From the NCBI GenBank assembly GCA_002456995.1, contig NTKC01000009.1, positions 1 to 64,000 of the forward strand: a stretch of 64,000 nt of DNA, given 5' to 3'. Shown one piece after another: positions 55,067-63,079 of this stretch. Numbering within the stretch: position 1 is the stretch's first letter; each line of letters begins with the position of its first letter. The notes beneath the pieces were generated by a model. That model had not been told where the DNA came from and searched no databases. It saw only the letters and a list, made by a program, of their open reading frames with translations. The translations under genes and the position numbers were made by a program. This DNA is from Candidatus Thioglobus sp. MED-G25 (lineage in GTDB: Bacteria > Pseudomonadota > Gammaproteobacteria > Arenicellales > UBA868).

Positions 55067-55142
55067 TCCCCGGTAGTTCAGTTGGTAGAACGGTGGACTG
55101 TTAATCCATATGTCGCTGGTTCGAGTCCAGCCCGGGGAGCCA
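55067..55142 (+). tRNA. tRNA-Asn(GTT), attachment site of the downstream elements
   Basis: TCCCCGG pairs with CCGGGGA at 55132-55138, then G and an encoded CCA at 55140-55142. The anticodon loop CTGTTAA gives GTT. The T-arm GCTGG/CCAGC closes TTCGAGT. The 3' part recurs at 56561-56620, 59761-59820 and, decayed, at 60867-60915. Confidence 0.97.
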
Positions 55143-55193
55143 GTTTTATAGGGTTTTTTCAACAGTCCTTCCACGCTCTATTCCTTAACGTTG

Positions 55194-55382
55194 CTAAAAC
55201 GTTGCTAACTTTGGCAGCTTTGCCATTGCTTCATGCGCCCTATCGTCAGCCGTATGCATATATCTTTGTGTAGTCTTTAGGTTCTTATGCCCAGCTACCC
55301 TAGAAATATCGTATACGTTTGAGTTGGAAACATGTACAGCCTCTGTAATAGAGGTATGTCTTAGGCAATGTGGTGTAGCCAT
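55194..55382 (-). pseudogene. Tyrosine recombinase (phage integrase) C-terminal fragment
   Basis: Only the last 62 residues remain. They carry three active-site elements: PHCLRHTSI (Arg box), VAGHKNLKTTQRYM (His and the nucleophilic Tyr). An in-frame stop lies upstream of the fragment, and yghU begins soon after, so the catalytic N-terminal part is gone. The 3' end points at tRNA-Asn, the arrangement expected for an integrase next to its attL site. Confidence 0.85.
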
Positions 55383-55442
55383 GCAATTCCAGCCCTTCCT
55401 TTAATGGGCGGGTACTGTTTGCTGATGACGCGCTCAAGCCAA

Positions 55443-56312
55443 TCAATCGAGATCGCTGGCATCGTGGCGTTCGGGGGCGCGCTTTAGCTCATCACGGCGC
55501 TCCCATGGCCGATCTTCCGGTCCCCAGGTTTTGTTGACCCGCCGGCCACGCTCGACCGCCGGCCGCCGCTCTATTTCCATTGCCCATCTGGCAACATGTT
55601 TATACGACACGACGTCAAGGAATTCCGCCGCATTGTATGAATTATTTAACACCAGATTGCCATACCAGGCATAGGTGGCGATGTCGGCGATATTGTAGTC
55701 ATCGCCGCAGAGATAGGGCCGCGCGGAAAGATTCTGATCCAAGACATCGAGTTGACGTTTGGCTTCCATTGCATAGCGATCAATTGGGTACTCGAACTTT
55801 TCCGGCGCGTAGGCGTAGAAATGACCGAACCCGCCGCCGAGATAGGGCGCGCTGCCCATCTGCCAAAACAGCCAAGAGTAACATTCGGCCCGCGCAGATT
55901 GTTCGTCCGGAACAAACTCCCCAAACTTTTCCGCCAGGTATAGGAGAATTGCACCTGACTCAAACACACGTGTCCCTGGCGATGTGCTGCGATCGAGTAA
56001 GGCCGGAATCTTTGAGTTTGGGTTGAGCGCCACGAAGCCGCTGCCGAACTGCTCGCTATCACTGATCTTGATCAGGAAGGCATCATATTCAGCCCCCTTA
56101 TGTCCAAGCGCCAACAGCTCCTCCAGAAGAATCGTTACTTTGACGCCATTCGGTGTCGCGAGCGAATAGAGCTGCAGCGGATGTTTTCCGACCGGTAATT
56201 CCTTCTCATGTGTTGCGCCGGCGGTGGGACGATTGATATTGGCCCATTTCCCACCGTTTTTGTTTATGTTTTGCCAGACTTTTGGCGGTGTATAAGACGA
56301 TGTATTGGGCAT
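55443..56312 (-). CDS. yghU: Glutathione S-transferase-like disulfide-bond oxidoreductase YghU
   Basis: YghU reduces disulfides and organic peroxides with glutathione. The 289-residue protein closely follows E. coli YghU: GGKWANINRPTAGATHEKEL, PVGKHPLQLYSLATPNG, NPNSKIPALLD (cis-Pro GSH site), RVFESGAILLYLAEKFG and GGGFGHFYAYAPEKFEY. GGAAAG lies 9 bases before ATG 56312, preferred over GTG 56318. It is cargo of the first element beside tRNA-Asn, and its codon choice looks GC-richer than the core genes. Confidence 0.96.
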   Translation of the reverse strand: MPNTSSYTPPKVWQNINKNGGKWANINRPTAGATHEKELPVGKHPLQLYSLATPNGVKVTILLEELLALGHKGAEYDAFLIKISDSEQFGSGFVALNPNSKIPALLDRSTSPGTRVFESGAILLYLAEKFGEFVPDEQSARAECYSWLFWQMGSAPYLGGGFGHFYAYAPEKFEYPIDRYAMEAKRQLDVLDQNLSARPYLCGDDYNIADIATYAWYGNLVLNNSYNAAEFLDVVSYKHVARWAMEIERRPAVERGRRVNKTWGPEDRPWERRDELKRAPERHDASDLD

Positions 56313-56374
56313 AAGCACAGCTTTCCAGTTGTGATGGCAATGTTAATAGAGCTAACTAGTGATTATGGGAATTA

Positions 56375-56400
56375 TAGGGCGTGACACTTTGGTACCGTTA
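56375..56400 (-). repeat. 26-bp motif, copy 1, upstream of yghU
   Basis: TAGGGCGTGACACTTTGGTA continues into CCGTTA. Similar copies occur at 58519-58543 and 59191-59215, each 37-63 bases upstream of a minus-strand gene start. On the minus strand this copy reads into TATAAT, so it may include a promoter. Confidence 0.65.
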
Positions 56401-56560
56401 GGCCCGACATGGCGGGTACAGGTAATGTCGAAGTTAAGGATTTGGCGAGTGACACTATCTCAGCGTCATTTCTGTCGAGAAACGACACCAAACAACCTAG
56501 AAGCACAGGATCAGTGTTTAGGTTAGTGCTTATTTCTAGGTGTTTTCTTTAATCAGCTAC
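56391..56560 (+). repeat. Imperfect direct repeat A, right end of the first element
   Basis: About 170 bases that recur, imperfectly, at 59581-59760 and lead into a tRNA-Asn 3' copy both times. It contains GCGGGTACAGGTAATGTCGA and an inverted repeat at 56496-56540 whose arms (CCTAG/CTAGG) covary with the other copy. It may be an element end or a recombinase-binding region. Confidence 0.75.
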
Positions 56561-56620
56561 GGTTGGAACGGTGGACTGTTAATCCATATGTCGCAAGTTC
56601 GAGTCTTGCCCGGGGAGCCA
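56561..56620 (+). repeat. tRNA-Asn 3'-end copy 1 (att-like site)
   Basis: Sixty bases identical to 59761-59820 and closely similar to the 3' part of tRNA-Asn, including the anticodon arm, T-arm and CCA. The T-stem reads GCAAG/CTTGC here, still fully paired, so it is a functional tRNA 3' end carried by an element rather than random decay. It lacks the 5' half and is not a tRNA gene. Confidence 0.9.
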
Positions 56621-56648
56621 GTTTTCTCGATATTTTTGCACAGTTCAT

Positions 56649-56720
56649 TCAGGTTCTATTCCTTAACGTTGCTAACATTGGCAGCTTAGCCATCGATTCA
56701 TGCAGCCTTTCATCCACATT
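56649..56720 (-). pseudogene. Integrase C-terminal remnant after att copy 1
   Basis: On the minus strand the frame reads VDERLHESMAKLPMLATL before a stop. It lines up with DDRAHEAMAKLPKLATF at the end of the integrase fragment beside tRNA-Asn. Nothing of the active site remains. It marks the start of the second element. Confidence 0.75.
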
Positions 56721-56776
56721 ATGGAACTAATTCAAAAGGTGAGTGAACTGACGGCTAGTAATTGTATCTACAGTAG

Positions 56777-57634
56777 CTATCCATCTACGTCTGGATCTTC
56801 AGAATTCCCCCCACTGGGAGTGCGTTTTGAGCCGTGACCGGAAAAGAAACGCCCGGTTGCGTCAGCATGGTGCTGACGTGCGAGGGCATCATAGCCCCTT
56901 GTCGGTTTGGTTTCCGGGTCGAAATGGTCGAAATGGTCCTCGCCCCGTACCAGCGTCGCGGTTAATCGTCGTGGTCCAGTATGGCGAACTCGGGTCGGAA
57001 TATAACTTACACCAATCCCGATTCGACGATCAGTACTCCGGTTAGGTTTCGAAGAGTGCACCAAATGGGTGTGGTGCAGGGTGAACTGTCCGGACGGTAC
57101 CTGCAATAATTCTGCTTGGGTCCAATCGATCCCATCCACATACTGACCATTCGATAACAGGTTGCCTTCAGTCTCGCCCTTCTTATGTGCCAGGGCCCCA
57201 TAACGGTGACTGCCGGGTAAGACCTGGAGACAGCCGCTCACCTCCGAGGAATCCGAAAGCGCGATCCAAGCCGTAACGTGTTCGGCTGGCTCGAGAAAGA
57301 AATAGGTGCCATCTTGATGCCAAGAAACGTAGGTCTGGTCACCCGGTTCCTTGATCCAGCAGGTGAGGTGGTAGACCATAATATTCGGGCCAATTAGGCT
57401 TTCGACAGTATCGAGCACCACGGGTAACCGAATCAGGTCGTGCATCCACGGGAATAACAGGTGGGTTTTGGCACGCACCTGGTTTGACATACTGCTAAGC
57501 TGCCTACCCTCGCTTTTTTCGAACGCTTCCAACTCGTCGCGAAAGTACGCTACCTCTTTCGAAATTAGTCCGTCGAAGGGTCCGATGAAACCCCGTTCCG
57601 CATACTCTCGAACCTGTTCCGGGGTTAGTCTCAC
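56777..57634 (-). CDS. Phytanoyl-CoA dioxygenase family protein
   Basis: An Fe(II)/2-oxoglutarate dioxygenase of 285 residues. The metal-binding triad is visible as WHQDGTYF (HxD) and a distal His in HHTHLVHSSKPN, followed by the 2-oxoglutarate-binding Arg in STDRRIGIGVSY. The N-terminal part (LTPEQVREYAERGFIGPFDG) is typical of PhyH-like hydroxylases. The acidic, Gly/Pro-rich tail is probably disordered. It is followed upstream by an SDR gene 73 bases away on the same strand. Substrate unknown. Confidence 0.93.
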   Translation of the reverse strand: MRLTPEQVREYAERGFIGPFDGLISKEVAYFRDELEAFEKSEGRQLSSMSNQVRAKTHLLFPWMHDLIRLPVVLDTVESLIGPNIMVYHLTCWIKEPGDQTYVSWHQDGTYFFLEPAEHVTAWIALSDSSEVSGCLQVLPGSHRYGALAHKKGETEGNLLSNGQYVDGIDWTQAELLQVPSGQFTLHHTHLVHSSKPNRSTDRRIGIGVSYIPTRVRHTGPRRLTATLVRGEDHFDHFDPETKPTRGYDALARQHHADATGRFFSGHGSKRTPSGGNSEDPDVDG

Positions 57635-57707
57635 GGTGTTTTGTACTCTCAGTCCTCAGATCAGTCCAGATTCTGTCATCGCCACGATACGCGAATAGTC
57701 CCGGCCT

Positions 57708-58472
57708 TCATCTATTCCACCAGGCGAGGTCGGAGAACGAACGTAGGTCGATCTCGTGGGTCCAGGCGGAGCGGTGCTGCTGGGCGATGTGATAGTACGT
57801 ATCCGCGATCTTGGCTGGGAGCATCAAGCCGTCGTGTTCCATACCGCGGGTCTCCCGCAGCTCTTGAAACTTCTCCGGGCCGAGCATCTTACCGAGCGTA
57901 TCCGGGGCATCAACCGAGCCGTCGATGAGGATATGGGCGACGTGTATTCCTTTGGGTGCGAACTCCGCGTTTAGGCTTTGGCAGAGCATCCGCCGTCCTC
58001 CCATTGCCGCTGCATGCGAATGCTGCCCACGGTTGCCGCGCACGGCGGCAGTGGAGGAGGTCACCAGGATCGTTCCTCCGCCGCGCGCCTCCATCAACGG
58101 GCACACAGTCGAGGCGAAACGAAACAAGGCAAAGGTCGCGAGCCGCCAACCGATTTCGAATTGCTTATACGTCGTTTCCTCGAGCGAATGGTTTCCAATC
58201 TGAGCACCGATATTGAACACCGCAACCTCGATGGGCCCGATATCAGCCTCGATTGATGCTACCCGCTCCTCCAGGCTGTCGGTCTCGACCGCATTGAGAA
58301 GGAATCCCGATGCGGAGCCATCCTTGCTTTCGATCTCCTCGACAAGCTGCCTCAAACCGTTCACATTGGTGCGGCGGCAGAGCACTGCGTGATAGCCCGC
58401 TTTCGCGAAGCGCTTGCCGACGTTTCCGCCGATTCCAGCGCCAGCACCTATGACGAGACAGACTGGTTTCAT
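57708..58472 (-). CDS. SDR-fold protein lacking the catalytic Tyr-Lys pair
   Basis: The 254-residue protein has the dinucleotide motif VIGAGAGIGG and a normal Rossmann topology, with VAVFNIGAQ in place of NNAG and TSSTAA keeping Ser. Where YxxxK is expected it reads HSHAAAMGGRRM, so Tyr and Lys are missing. GIHVAHILIDGSVDAP is the family's C-terminal loop. Related SDRs of this type also lack the pair and may bind rather than reduce. It is probably co-transcribed with the dioxygenase gene; the region is GC-rich compared with the core. Confidence 0.85.
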   Translation of the reverse strand: MKPVCLVIGAGAGIGGNVGKRFAKAGYHAVLCRRTNVNGLRQLVEEIESKDGSASGFLLNAVETDSLEERVASIEADIGPIEVAVFNIGAQIGNHSLEETTYKQFEIGWRLATFALFRFASTVCPLMEARGGGTILVTSSTAAVRGNRGQHSHAAAMGGRRMLCQSLNAEFAPKGIHVAHILIDGSVDAPDTLGKMLGPEKFQELRETRGMEHDGLMLPAKIADTYYHIAQQHRSAWTHEIDLRSFSDLAWWNR

Positions 58473-58518
58473 CTCGGGTCAACTCCTAGTTCTACGTTCT
58501 AGAATCCGTTTACCCAAC

Positions 58519-58543
58519 AGGGCGTGATACTTTGTTACCGTTA
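58519..58543 (-). repeat. 26-bp motif, copy 2, upstream of the SDR gene
   Basis: CAGGGCGTGATACTTTGTTA then CCGTTA. It lies 47 bases upstream of the SDR start and overlaps the stop codon of the frame at 58541-58805. No TATAAT follows here. Confidence 0.6.
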
Positions 58544-58805
58544 ATTCTTTGAAGGTTTGCTCTCGACAGTCGTAATATCAGGGCTGACTCCGTTCTTCTT
58601 TAAACAATGCACTTTGGCCTGATCTATCCCTGTGGAATAGTGGACAAGAACGGCAAACCAGTCCTTATTCTTTCGGTAAGTTCTCTTCCACTGTGGAACA
58701 AACAATTTACCAGCTTCTTCCTCATTGGATGTCCAACGATATGCACTACCTTCTATGATAGTTTCAATTCTACCTTCGACTAAGCAAACTTAAAAAGACT
58801 TTCAC
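58541..58805 (-). pseudogene. Probable frameshifted small gene
   Basis: On the minus strand an 80-codon frame without a usable start ends at TAA 58541-58543 and reads EGRIETIIEGSAYRW, then WKRTYRKNKDWFAVL and VHYSTGIDQAKVHC. A GTG at 58805, preceded by AGGAG, begins KVFLSLL in a different frame that stops after 11 codons; joining them near 58790 would give one protein. Family not recognised. A real frameshift or an assembly error cannot be told apart. Confidence 0.4.
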
Positions 58806-58860
58806 TCCTGAATGTCCATATCTTAATCTTTTATGTCTTTACGCTTGTTTTAGATGCCTA

Positions 58861-59139
58861 CTAATTCCGTACATCGACATGAATAGGACCAACCGCTTCC
58901 ATCCTCATTTCTATATCCAGTGTCTCAACTTGGTCTTTACGATACGAAGCAAGTGTTGCCTTGAAGTCTTCATACACTTCCTGAGAGGGATAAGTGCAAA
59001 ATGAGCCGTGATTATGGTCATCGATTGCAAACCACTGCACCGTTGATCCTTCAGGCATGTCATCACCAATCTCCGATTCCATACCATTCCAGTCAATCGC
59101 ATTGGTATGTTTCCAAGTAGTCATTACGGCATATTTCAT
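58861..59139 (-). CDS. Small hypothetical protein, possibly ABM/DUF3303-like
   Basis: A 92-residue protein starting KYAVMTTWKHTNAIDWN. The pattern (strand, helix, VQWFAIDDHNHGSFC, helix YEDFKATLASYRK, strand) suggests a small ferredoxin-like dimeric barrel. The frame extends to 59154, but GGAG precedes the ATG at 59139 by 9 bases. It has the third copy of the 26-bp motif upstream. Function unknown. Confidence 0.65.
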   Translation of the reverse strand: MKYAVMTTWKHTNAIDWNGMESEIGDDMPEGSTVQWFAIDDHNHGSFCTYPSQEVYEDFKATLASYRKDQVETLDIEMRMEAVGPIHVDVRN

Positions 59140-59190
59140 AGCTCTCATCTCCATTTATTATTTACGGCTTCATTCTACAATTCTCCCTTA

Positions 59191-59215
59191 TAGGGCGTGA
59201 CACTTTTTGCCGTCA
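59191..59215 (-). repeat. 26-bp motif, copy 3, upstream of the small hypothetical gene
   Basis: TAGGGCGTGACACTTTTTGC then CGTCA. It lies 52 bases before the ATG at 59139. On the minus strand it reads into TATAAG, like copy 1, which supports a promoter role for the whole unit. Confidence 0.6.
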
Positions 59216-59312
59216 CCGCTCCAGTCAGCACGAATGGCCATAAGACCTAGCATTGGCTCGATGGAATGAATAGACTAATTCTGATGTGACTAACAATTTT
59301 TAAGGTAACACA

Positions 59313-59570
59313 ATGTATTTCTTTGCAGAACATAGACACACAGGCGCCACATGCTTTTCTAAAGACGAATCAAAGACCGTACTATTTGATAATTTAATAA
59401 CTGAAGCAAATGAACATGGTGTAAAAATACATCAATTCTTAAAGTGCGCTCCTGAGCATAGATTCTTTTTTGTGCTTGAGGCTGAGGACTATCAAGCTAT
59501 CCATAACTTTTTTCAGCAAGTATTCACATTAGGAGATATTGAGATTGTTCCAGCAATTAGCGCTCTCTAG
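59313..59570 (+). CDS. Small hypothetical protein (85 aa)
   Basis: The protein reads YFFAEHRHTGATCFSKDES, then HGVKIHQFLKCAPEHRFFFV and EDYQAIHNFFQQVFTLGDIE. It has the same strand-helix-strand size and order as the neighbouring 92-residue protein and could be the same kind of small barrel. It is divergent from that gene. There is no signal or membrane segment. Function unknown. Confidence 0.6.
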   Translation: MYFFAEHRHTGATCFSKDESKTVLFDNLITEANEHGVKIHQFLKCAPEHRFFFVLEAEDYQAIHNFFQQVFTLGDIEIVPAISAL

Positions 59571-59580
59571 AGTGTCTACG

Positions 59581-59760
59581 GGATCGTTAGGTCCGACATA
59601 GCGGGTACAGGTAATGTCGAAGCTAGGAATCTAGCTACTGACACTATATTGGCACTGTCTAAACGTCTTTTCTGACGCGAAACGACCTCAAACAACCTAC
59701 AAGCACAGCATCAGAGTTTAGGTTTATGCTTGTTTGTAGGCGTTTCTTACAATCTACTGC
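59581..59760 (+). repeat. Imperfect direct repeat B, right end of the second element
   Basis: Matches 56391-56560: GCGGGTACAGGTAATGTCGA is shared exactly and AACAACCTA-x-AAGCACAG is conserved. Its inverted repeat arms are at 59696-59705 and 59727-59740, with CCTAC/GTAGG replacing CCTAG/CTAGG of the other copy. It leads directly into the second tRNA-Asn 3' copy. Confidence 0.75.
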
Positions 59761-59820
59761 GGTTGGAACGGTGGACTGTTAATCCATATGTCGCAAGTTC
59801 GAGTCTTGCCCGGGGAGCCA
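59761..59820 (+). repeat. tRNA-Asn 3'-end copy 2 (att-like site)
   Basis: Identical over 60 bases to 56561-56620, and similar to the end of tRNA-Asn at 55067-55142. It marks the junction between the second and third elements. Confidence 0.9.
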
Positions 59821-59865
59821 GTTTTCTTGATTGTTTTGCCATTCCCACCACTCCCATTTTGTCAC

Positions 59866-59988
59866 TCTAACTATCGACGGTAACGTTGCCATTGCGTTAT
59901 GCCGGCTATCAGCCGCTACAAGGATCTATCCCAGCGTTGTCTTGAGACCTTTATGACCAGCGCGGTTGCTTAATACATCTCTGTGCTT
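59866..59988 (-). pseudogene. Decayed integrase C-terminal remnant after att copy 2
   Basis: The minus-strand frame reads HRDVLSNRAGHKGLKTTLG, then a stop codon, then VAADSRHNAMATLP. It matches the AGHKNLKTTQRY and ADDRAHEAMAKLP parts of the fragment at 55194-55382. The nucleophilic Tyr is lost and there is an in-frame stop, so it is clearly dead. Confidence 0.75.
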
Positions 59989-60101: not shown

Positions 60102-60668
60102 ATGATGCATGGAAACGCGTTGTGTCCTGGACTTGGCGATTACCTAATAGCCCAAGCCAGAAACAACCACTGGAGCAATAATCGCCTGCATTCGGCATGT
60201 TTGCGTCTGTCTGCCACGGAGTACTACCAGAAACGCCCTAGCTTTTTCGGCTCCATACAGATCCACCTGGATCACATCGTCTTCGTCGATTGGCTCTACC
60301 TAGAGCGCTTAACAGGAAAGCAGTACCTGCCCGCTGATGTTGGGGAAGAATTGCACAGCGAACTCGCGCCACTAGTGGAGGATCAGGTGAAAGCCGATAG
60401 AGCGCTGATCAAGTACTGCGAGGCTGCGAAACCCGAAACCCTTGCCTCAAAGGTGTCGTTCAAGCTTTTGGACGGTACACAGCACACGGAGGCTGTCTGG
60501 GGCGTGCTTGCGCATCTGTTCACGCACCAGATTCATCATCGTGGTCAGGTGCACGATATGCTCTCGGCAACGTCAGTGGCACCGCCCCAGCTTGACCAGT
60601 TTTTCCTCAGCTCCGATTTGCAGCTTCGTGAGGTCGAGTTAAAGGCATTGAACCTACCCATTGAGTAA
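60102..60668 (+). CDS. DinB family protein
   Basis: A four-helix metal-binding protein of 188 residues. The three-His site is visible: HLDHIVFVDWLYLERL (His in helix 2) and FTHQIHHRGQVHDML, with two further His. DinB proteins are often thiol-dependent transferases or hydrolases of unknown substrate. The start is ATG 60102, with GAGG five bases before it. It is cargo of the third element. No damage-inducible promoter was seen. Confidence 0.93.
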   Translation: MMHGNALCPGLGDYLIAQARNNHWSNNRLHSACLRLSATEYYQKRPSFFGSIQIHLDHIVFVDWLYLERLTGKQYLPADVGEELHSELAPLVEDQVKADRALIKYCEAAKPETLASKVSFKLLDGTQHTEAVWGVLAHLFTHQIHHRGQVHDMLSATSVAPPQLDQFFLSSDLQLREVELKALNLPIE

Positions 60669-60866
60669 CGTGGTTTGATGGAGTATTCATCCATCGGCCG
60701 ATTCCTGGCTTTTGGTACTGTCACTAATAGGTTACTAACTTAACGACCTGCCTGACGCGGAGCCAGGTAAAGGACTTGAAGCCTTCGCAGATAAGAACGA
60801 TCTGTGAAATCGTAGACGTGAACTGGCTCAAATTTCCTGGTCAGATTAATGGACCACGCAAATAAA

Positions 60867-60915
60867 GCTGAATTGTTAATTCGTATATCACTGGTTCAAA
60901 CCCAATCCAGGGAAC
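60867..60915 (+). pseudogene. Decayed third copy of the tRNA-Asn 3' end
   Basis: GAATTGTTAATTC lines up with GGACTGTTAATCC of the anticodon arm, and CACTGGTTCAAACCCA with the T-arm, ending CAGGGAAC. The anticodon-stem changes are mostly compensatory, but the T-stem is mismatched. It probably marks the far end of the third element. Confidence 0.65.
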
Positions 60916-60944
60916 TTGTTATTCCAGATTCTTCCGGCTATCAA

Positions 60945-62038: not shown

Positions 62039-63079
62039 TCATAATCGAATTCCCACTCCCTTTTCCGATGCCTCAAAAACTGCGAGGGTAGCCTTTAAAG
62101 TTTTCGTTGCATCCACAGCATTGATTCTAGGCTCCTCTTTACCTTTAATCACTGCGCAGAAATGACGGATCTGTTCGGCATAAGCATCTCCGATCTCACT
62201 CTCGATAACTTCAGGGCTGATTTCATGGAGCCAGTCGGGTTCATTACCCGCATGTCTCCATAGAACCAGATTCGGGAAATCTAGTGACGCTTTGGATCCA
62301 ATAAACCGGTAGACATTTTGTGAAGTCTTGGGAAAATTTGGATTTTCCCCCGTAGCCTGCTCCCAGGTCCAAGGAGAAGGGGTAACGTCCGATAACAAAA
62401 ATGTCCCTAGTGCCCCAGAGTGGAACTCAAGCAAGAGTGCAGTAGTTTCCTCTTTGGGATGGTCTCGAATTCCTTTACTGACTTTGGCTGATATCGAGGC
62501 AATTTCCCCACAGACATATCTGAGGGTATCGATTTCGTGGATTAGATTGATCAGAACCGGCCCTGAAGTTCGCTGCTTGCGCCATTCCAGCTCGAAATAG
62601 GCATCTGCTTTTCGAGTTGCCCAGATGCCTGTGACGCCAACCAGTTCACCCAATACTCCTTTTTCCATCATACGCTTTGTTTGTTGCATTTGTTCGGAAT
62701 AGCGCCGGTGATGCCCGACCAGAACCTGCCTATTGAATCTCTTTGAAAACTCAATAATCTGCTGCGCCTCTTCGAGAGAGGGTGCAATGGGCTTTTCTAC
62801 CAGCACATGGGCATTGAACTCAAGCGACGACAGAACTGGCTCCAGATGCACTTCAGTCGGGGTACACACGATTACACCATCTGGCTGTATCTCTCTCAGC
62901 ATTTGCCTAGTTGATGAAAAGAAACTGGCGTTGGTTTTGATCGCGATTGATTGGGCGAGCGGATCTGTATCGACGATCGCCACCAGTTCAGCTTGGGTCA
63001 CCTCAGAGATTGCCTGCAGATGCCTTTTGCCTATGGTGCCGGCGCCAATCAATCCCAGTTTAGTTTTGTGTTGTCCCAC
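62039..63079 (-). CDS. Gfo/Idh/MocA family oxidoreductase
   Basis: An NAD(P)-dependent sugar- or inositol-type dehydrogenase of 346 residues. The Rossmann motif is GLIGAGTIGKRHLQAI, the conserved EKP appears in VLVEKPIAPSLEEAQQ, and the C-terminal domain has WRKQRTSGPVLINLIHEIDT with the typical His/Asp. It starts at GTG 63079 and is divergent from the ABC permease, so the two could belong to one uptake-and-use pathway. Substrate unknown. Confidence 0.93.
   Translation of the reverse strand: MGQHKTKLGLIGAGTIGKRHLQAISEVTQAELVAIVDTDPLAQSIAIKTNASFFSSTRQMLREIQPDGVIVCTPTEVHLEPVLSSLEFNAHVLVEKPIAPSLEEAQQIIEFSKRFNRQVLVGHHRRYSEQMQQTKRMMEKGVLGELVGVTGIWATRKADAYFELEWRKQRTSGPVLINLIHEIDTLRYVCGEIASISAKVSKGIRDHPKEETTALLLEFHSGALGTFLLSDVTPSPWTWEQATGENPNFPKTSQNVYRFIGSKASLDFPNLVLWRHAGNEPDWLHEISPEVIESEIGDAYAEQIRHFCAVIKGKEEPRINAVDATKTLKATLAVFEASEKGVGIRL

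Follow-up and report, generated by a model that had tools for sequence, protein, structure and literature searches.

Tycheposons are cargo elements of streamlined marine bacteria that target tRNA genes and carry tyrosine recombinases. Cis-mobilizable elements (CIMEs) and accretion arrays are described for Streptococcus salivarius in passages of one article, which also cites the tRNA-Lys gene of S. agalactiae (PMC7563491). Parts of a second article describe 15 genomic islands without an integration module at ssrA in Dehalococcoides (PMC3146451), and parts of a third describe the attP site of ICEMlSymR7A, in which five arm-type motifs for IntS and sites for RdfS have been studied experimentally (PMC11963761). 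The subject here is an array of small cassettes behind a tRNA-Asn gene of Candidatus Thioglobus sp. MED-G25, and an inverted repeat that stands near the end of two of them. The array lies in a stretch of 64,000 nucleotides (contig NTKC01000009.1, positions 1 to 64,000), called the window below, and the source genome is a 1.6-Mb draft that is 86% complete.

The inverted repeat and the arms of the cassettes

The inverted repeat is probably, with only modest confidence, part of a conserved block of about 50 bp that belongs to the right arm (the side without the integrase) of the attachment site of small integrative elements, which were serially inserted in tRNA-Asn at its 3' half. The stack consists of three cassettes and begins after an intact tRNA-Asn(GTT) gene (55067..55142, + strand; found by ARAGORN, 72.3 bits against the Rfam tRNA model), which is the insertion target and the sole intact tRNA-Asn of the window. 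In each cassette, a 3' half of tRNA-Asn comes first, next to what is left of the C-terminal end of a tyrosine recombinase, and a right arm forms the other end. Copies of the tRNA 3' half stand at the boundary of cassettes 1 and 2 (56566..56620, +), at that of cassettes 2 and 3 (59766..59820, +), and in degenerate form at the end of cassette 3 (60872..60920, +), where 35 of 49 bases agree and the differences are 13 transitions and 1 transversion. This outermost copy is the most degraded in the window, as stacking at the tRNA predicts.

The identity block extends from the anticodon stem to the 3' end of the tRNA and is found at both ends, with the integrase gene adjoining the target, as is typical of tRNA attachment sites of tyrosine recombinases. 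A related genome, G024, has the empty site: its tRNA joins directly to the gene that in another relative, G029, comes after a DinB cassette and the distal tRNA copy, and in the alignment of the two genomes the junction falls in the tRNA half. A tyrosine recombinase would have recombined the identity block (GAACGGTGGACTGTTAATCC...) of a circular form of the element with the chromosomal tRNA. Every insertion would leave the element's 3' half on the tRNA and displace the older half and the older cassettes outward.

The inverted repeat is real, and both copies lie where a sequence-only reading of the window had placed them; that reading had also recognized them correctly as ends of mobile-element insertions at tRNA-Asn. 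Copy 1 (56496..56540) has the arms CCTAGAAGCAC (56496-56506) and GTGCTTATTTCTAGG (56526-56540), and copy 2 (59696..59740) has the arms CCTACAAGCA (59696-59705) and TGCTTGTTTGTAGG (59727-59740), with no strand assigned to either. In copy 1, CCTAGAA pairs with TTCTAGG and GCAC with GTGC around a loop of 19 nt, and in copy 2, CCTACAA pairs with TTGTAGG and GCA with TGC. The two paired segments flank a 4-nt bulge in the right arm (TTAT and TTGT in the two window copies), and a bulge in one arm is present in all six copies known. The gap between the inverted repeat and the following tRNA-Asn 3'-half copy is 25 nt in both cases. The right arm of cassette 3 (the 60720..60737 end) lacks the inverted repeat, which is thus found in two of the three cassettes.

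Across right ends at tRNA-Asn in the family, the shared trait is two GTNNCTA sites in tandem, spaced by 11 to 12 bp or one helical turn, and not the inverted repeat. Matches were present in 31 other genomes, and sequence from 17 of these, covering 20 tRNA-Asn places, was read. Fifteen right-end sites were folded and 13 were kept for later comparisons, leaving out a nearly complete tRNA copy (L042) and a sequence with Ns that was unlike the others (L043). The 13 ends belong to several sequence groups and align nearly gap-free through the arm, except that the cassette 3 end of the window has a 19-column insertion. In only four of the 13 ends (window 56566, window 59766, L036 5988, and L045 2992) are the ungapped arms matched by fewer than 35 of 300 shuffles, and therefore palindromes are not a general feature of right ends. 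The tandem pair, on the other hand, was found by a simple pattern in nine of the 13, versus 0.2 expected from shuffles. Eight of these nine pairs are in register at 11-12 bp, and the pair found at window 59766 is in a false register.

Tandem-site right arms are present in the window (59640-59657 and 60720-60737) and in L035, L036, L037, L039, L044, and L045. The right arm of cassette 2 (59585..59765, +) has GACACTA at 59640-59646 and GGCACTG at 59651-59657, and that of cassette 3 has GTCACTA and GTTACTA (60720..60737, +, as read in the sequence). The right arm of cassette 1 (56391..56565, +), which has 82% identity to 59585-59839, has one GACACTA site (56451-56457). The left arm of cassette 1 contains two GTTGCTA sites 11 bp apart (55190..55207, +), which are putative arm-type sites. 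At left ends generally, a GTNNCTA-type site occurs in seven of 14, versus 5.4 expected, and six of these are at the same offset of 45 after the tRNA copy.

The middle dinucleotide NN differs between elements, and it is identical within the pair in eight of the ten right ends that have both sites readable by eye in the 13-end alignment. The shuffle mean is 2.4 agreements, and 48 of 200000 shuffles were as high, a fraction that is not a probability because the ends are related. The tandem sites are probably arm-type sites of the recombinase, and the block with the inverted repeat is probably bound as double-stranded DNA by a protein, either the recombinase or a directionality factor or one that bends DNA, and may matter for insertion or excision.

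Covariation, folding, and rival explanations

One arm position of the inverted repeat is altered on both sides, with G-C at 56500/56536 and C-G in the remaining five of six copies. The sequence-only reading took this difference, which is real, as a sign that pairing is preserved by compensation in an RNA hairpin or a symmetric protein-binding site. Compensation is not borne out by the six-copy alignment (A1), which consists of the two window copies and the copies of the same right end that occur three times in G005 and once in G029. A both-sided change affects one of 14 pairs and one copy only (W56). Paired cells make up 94.0% of 84, versus 92.1% in shuffles; the observed values were reached by 82 of 500 shuffles. 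When neutral evolution was simulated and G-T counted as a pair, 46% of runs contained one or more compensated pairs. With so many shuffles and neutral runs matching the observation, selected pairing does not follow from one matched change. The matched arm change is no more than chance expectation, and where only two copies are compared, a single match of this kind is weak evidence.

The earlier reading had named changes in one arm alone as what would count against it, and two of the six copies have such unpaired positions. The five broken cells among 84 are all in G005C5 and G029C63, whose tRNA pieces are mutated; these copies keep 11 and 12 pairs, while the other four keep 14 of 14. DNA folding of these two is no better than that of shuffles (71 of 200 and 172 of 200 as good). 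Sliding the partner arm causes a sharp drop in pairing, a weak control because the structure was derived from the same sequences. The arms are conserved and the loop more so: 17 of 21 loop columns are invariant, and identity falls from 0.92 for the loop to 0.87 and 0.84 for the two arms and to 0.76 and 0.61 for the flanking spacers.

Chance symmetry in a conserved arm is the main rival. The inverted repeat would then be a coincidence within sequence conserved by recent descent or another cause, a symmetry without a role, which is possible though rather unlikely. Of 300 shuffles, 21 and 12 had ungapped arms as good as those of the two window copies, and the window has perfect bulged repeats of the 7+3 form in roughly a dozen distinct places or more (27 matches, many of them overlapping). 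The shuffle-level pairing statistics and the cassette 3 end without such a repeat also fit coincidence. Folding speaks against it: in a chosen stretch, the two window copies have z scores between about -4.2 and -4.7 as RNA and DNA. The RNA values for the 57-nt stretches, picked around the repeat after it was seen, are -18.8 and -18.7 kcal/mol (z -4.19 and -4.23; none of 200 shuffles as good). The excess is weaker in the unchosen 100 nt upstream of the tRNA copies (z -3.50 and -1.84), and weaker still for the ungapped arms. Both repeats rank 25th among the 5328 AT-rich 57-nt stretches of the window. Broken arm pairs are also fewer than when neutral change is simulated with the substitution rates of the copies themselves, in which case five or fewer broken cells occurred in 0.1% of runs (P 0.001), though the loop is even more conserved.

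A selected RNA hairpin maintained by compensating changes, for example a terminator or a structured leader, is improbable. The stable predicted fold of both window copies, the T-rich tail TGTTTTCTTT downstream of copy 1, and the both-sided change described above are in its favor. A second right-end family (four sequences from G007 and G009, leaving out the partial fifth relative L122 and the short sixth L125) has a different inverted repeat in which two of ten pairs show both-sided change and five of 40 cells are broken. However, neither set clearly exceeds shuffles: in the second family the pairs were equalled by 101 of 500, and the range across pairs, cells, and score is 101 to 169 of 500. 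The loop is conserved better than the stem, only the tRNA family reached an Rfam gathering score, and neighboring genes point toward the repeat in some cassettes and away from it in others. The repeat is not among the six terminator-like sites listed for the window, a number at chance level (5.6). As an intrinsic terminator, with a GC-rich stem, short loop, and direct T-run, it was rejected on that listing and on its loop of 19-21 nt. Thus the earlier proposal stands in part: the hairpin is disfavored, and a protein-binding site is still the best guess.

A folded single-strand recombination site like integron attC is very improbable. The 4-nt bulge in one arm of six copies, the small cassettes of one to four genes, and the tandem arrays resemble such a system. 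The recombined and duplicated segment is, however, the tRNA 3' half and not the hairpin; inspection by eye showed no attC core, and two of the six copies have a broken stem although the loop is conserved. The recombinase relics adjoin the tRNA half, as with ordinary tRNA integrases. An integron attC proper, with recombination at the hairpin, was rejected, since the duplication and the empty-site junction are both in the tRNA half.

Several points weigh against the favored reading of an attachment-arm block. The inverted repeat of this sequence is confined to a single family of right ends, with two imperfect copies among its six, and other tRNA-Asn right ends carry none or a different one. Protein binding at the block is a prediction, and a short divergence time may also explain the high conservation in six related copies. 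The NN dinucleotide also differs between the left and right arms of one cassette (TG left and CA right in cassettes 1 and 2), which is odd for one recombinase. A speculative and improbable extension is that minimal cassettes were moved in trans by a now-rare tRNA-Asn recombinase, and that in their right arms NN changes alike in both tandem sites and the two halves of a symmetric site change jointly. If so, arm specificity would switch as a set, separating co-existing element families at one tRNA.

Cassette contents and related genomes

Cassette 1 has a recombinase C-terminal relic of 66 aa (55197..55394, - strand; translation, Phage_integrase E 1.6e-5), whose score of 25.2 bits is under the family cut-off of 27.1. 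It is 78% identical to a 182-aa fragment in a genome of the same genus, and this fragment passes the cut-off (E 7.2e-22). The cargo is a glutathione S-transferase (GST)-like protein (55443..56318, -; Pfam GST_N/GST_C). Cassette 2 has a 20-aa relic (56664..56723, -; tblastn) and encodes a PhyH-like dioxygenase (56777..57634, -; Pfam PhyH E 1.1e-30), a short-chain dehydrogenase (57708..58472, -; Pfam adh_short E 1.2e-25), and two small open reading frames, one of 97 aa without a Pfam match (58861..59154, -) and one that is DUF3303-like (59313..59570, +; Pfam E 8.1e-6). Cassette 3 has a relic of about 34 aa with an internal stop (59872..59973, -; tblastn) and a DinB-like protein (60102..60668, +; Pfam DinB E 8e-17).

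The DinB protein has 84% identity to its counterpart in G029 (L039 2810-3370), and the UvrB proteins next to the tRNA have 79%, suggesting that the DinB cassette may have been inherited over a long time and not have moved of late. A cassette with an aminotransferase and a kinase-like gene is common to G023 and G005 (84% and 72%). Searches with the right end as DNA in 109 genomes of the order matched the end itself only in G000, G005, and G029, and otherwise gave one 22-base match in G050 (E 0.006). A covariance model applied to the same genomes gave six strong matches, which are its six building copies, and no new strong one. Its weaker matches were not counted as copies; they are the L035 7806 end of G005, which came seventh with E 0.0019, and others at E 0.07 to 0.97. 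Only the window's own copies were found in 369 genomes of the class, and an exact 20-mer of the right end had no match in IMG/VR. Among the matches listed for phages and plasmids, only the tRNA part and a few preceding bases were covered.

No intact recombinase of the subfamily was found in 33 genomes of the family, the 109 of the order, GTDB contigs, or IMG/VR. The GTDB contigs have six recombinase loci, including two close relatives that are both gene fragments, and IMG/VR has five loci with 22-32% identity. Intact recombinases are present at other tRNAs (32-38% identity), and the nearest named relatives that carry the recombinase of the array are the gammaproteobacterial drafts REDSEA-S15_B12 and RIS_SAG_16. 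The array looks decayed, because these searches gave no full recombinase of the subfamily and the repeat is gone from the outermost end.

The T-arm alleles of the tRNA and its copies differ. They are CTGG/CCAG on the tRNA, CAAG/CTTG on the copies at 56566 and 59766, and CTGG-like on the copy at 60872; a difference is expected if the 3' half is swapped at each insertion. The sequence at 59753-59817, a tRNA copy with preceding element sequence, scores 31.2 bits against the Rfam tRNA model (cut-off 29) and may therefore be misannotated as a tRNA. The sequence AGGGCGTGAYACTTT occurs three times in the genome, all within the array (56376-56390, 58519-58533, and 59192-59206), and is absent from 32 related genomes. 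Two of the copies, at 58519 and 59192, fall within cassette 2, and this cassette may have arisen by fusion of earlier ones. Beyond the array, a Gfo/Idh/MocA-like gene (62039-63079) has 83% identity to a gene beside a tRNA-Asn cassette in G005 (L036 2526-3563), suggesting that the island may reach further right.

Comparison with known systems

The array is an ordinary kind of mobile-element relic, made up of old and decayed gene islets. The striking-looking repeat has its place within a known kind of structure and matters little as it stands. The array itself can serve to trace how insertions followed one another at a single tRNA gene, and the tandem sites, by changing in step, give a testable hint on the evolution of recombinase arm specificity. 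A literature search gave no title concerning a tRNA-Asn array of this kind. Tycheposons likewise carry cargo and target tRNA genes by means of tyrosine recombinases; in the present array the recombinases are relics.

Like the attP of ICEMlSymR7A as described in parts of PMC11963761, the arms have several candidate arm-type motifs in a tyrosine-recombinase attachment site, and a directionality-factor site is present in that system. The arm motif there is TGKTGGTATC, at sites studied by experiment, while GTNNCTA is the putative motif here. The Dehalococcoides ssrA islands, as far as parts of PMC3146451 describe them, are also in tandem behind an RNA gene and bounded by direct repeats of its 3' end; they involve a serine recombinase and a tmRNA target instead of tyrosine recombinase relics and tRNA-Asn.

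Among known systems, a CIME array comes closest. CIMEs descend from an integrative and conjugative element or an integrative and mobilizable element and, after accretion, are moved in cis with one. In this array and at its tRNA no element of either type was recognized, no intact integrase was seen in the array, and the cargo consists of metabolic enzymes of a gammaproteobacterium. Copies of the tRNA 3' half are found at each boundary, the empty site in G024 agrees with them, and the only recombination genes are the relics of 66, 20, and about 34 aa. In these respects the cassettes resemble CIMEs as set out in passages of PMC7563491, namely small elements flanked by attachment sites that carry cargo and no complete recombination gene and are arranged in tandem at the 3' end of a target gene.

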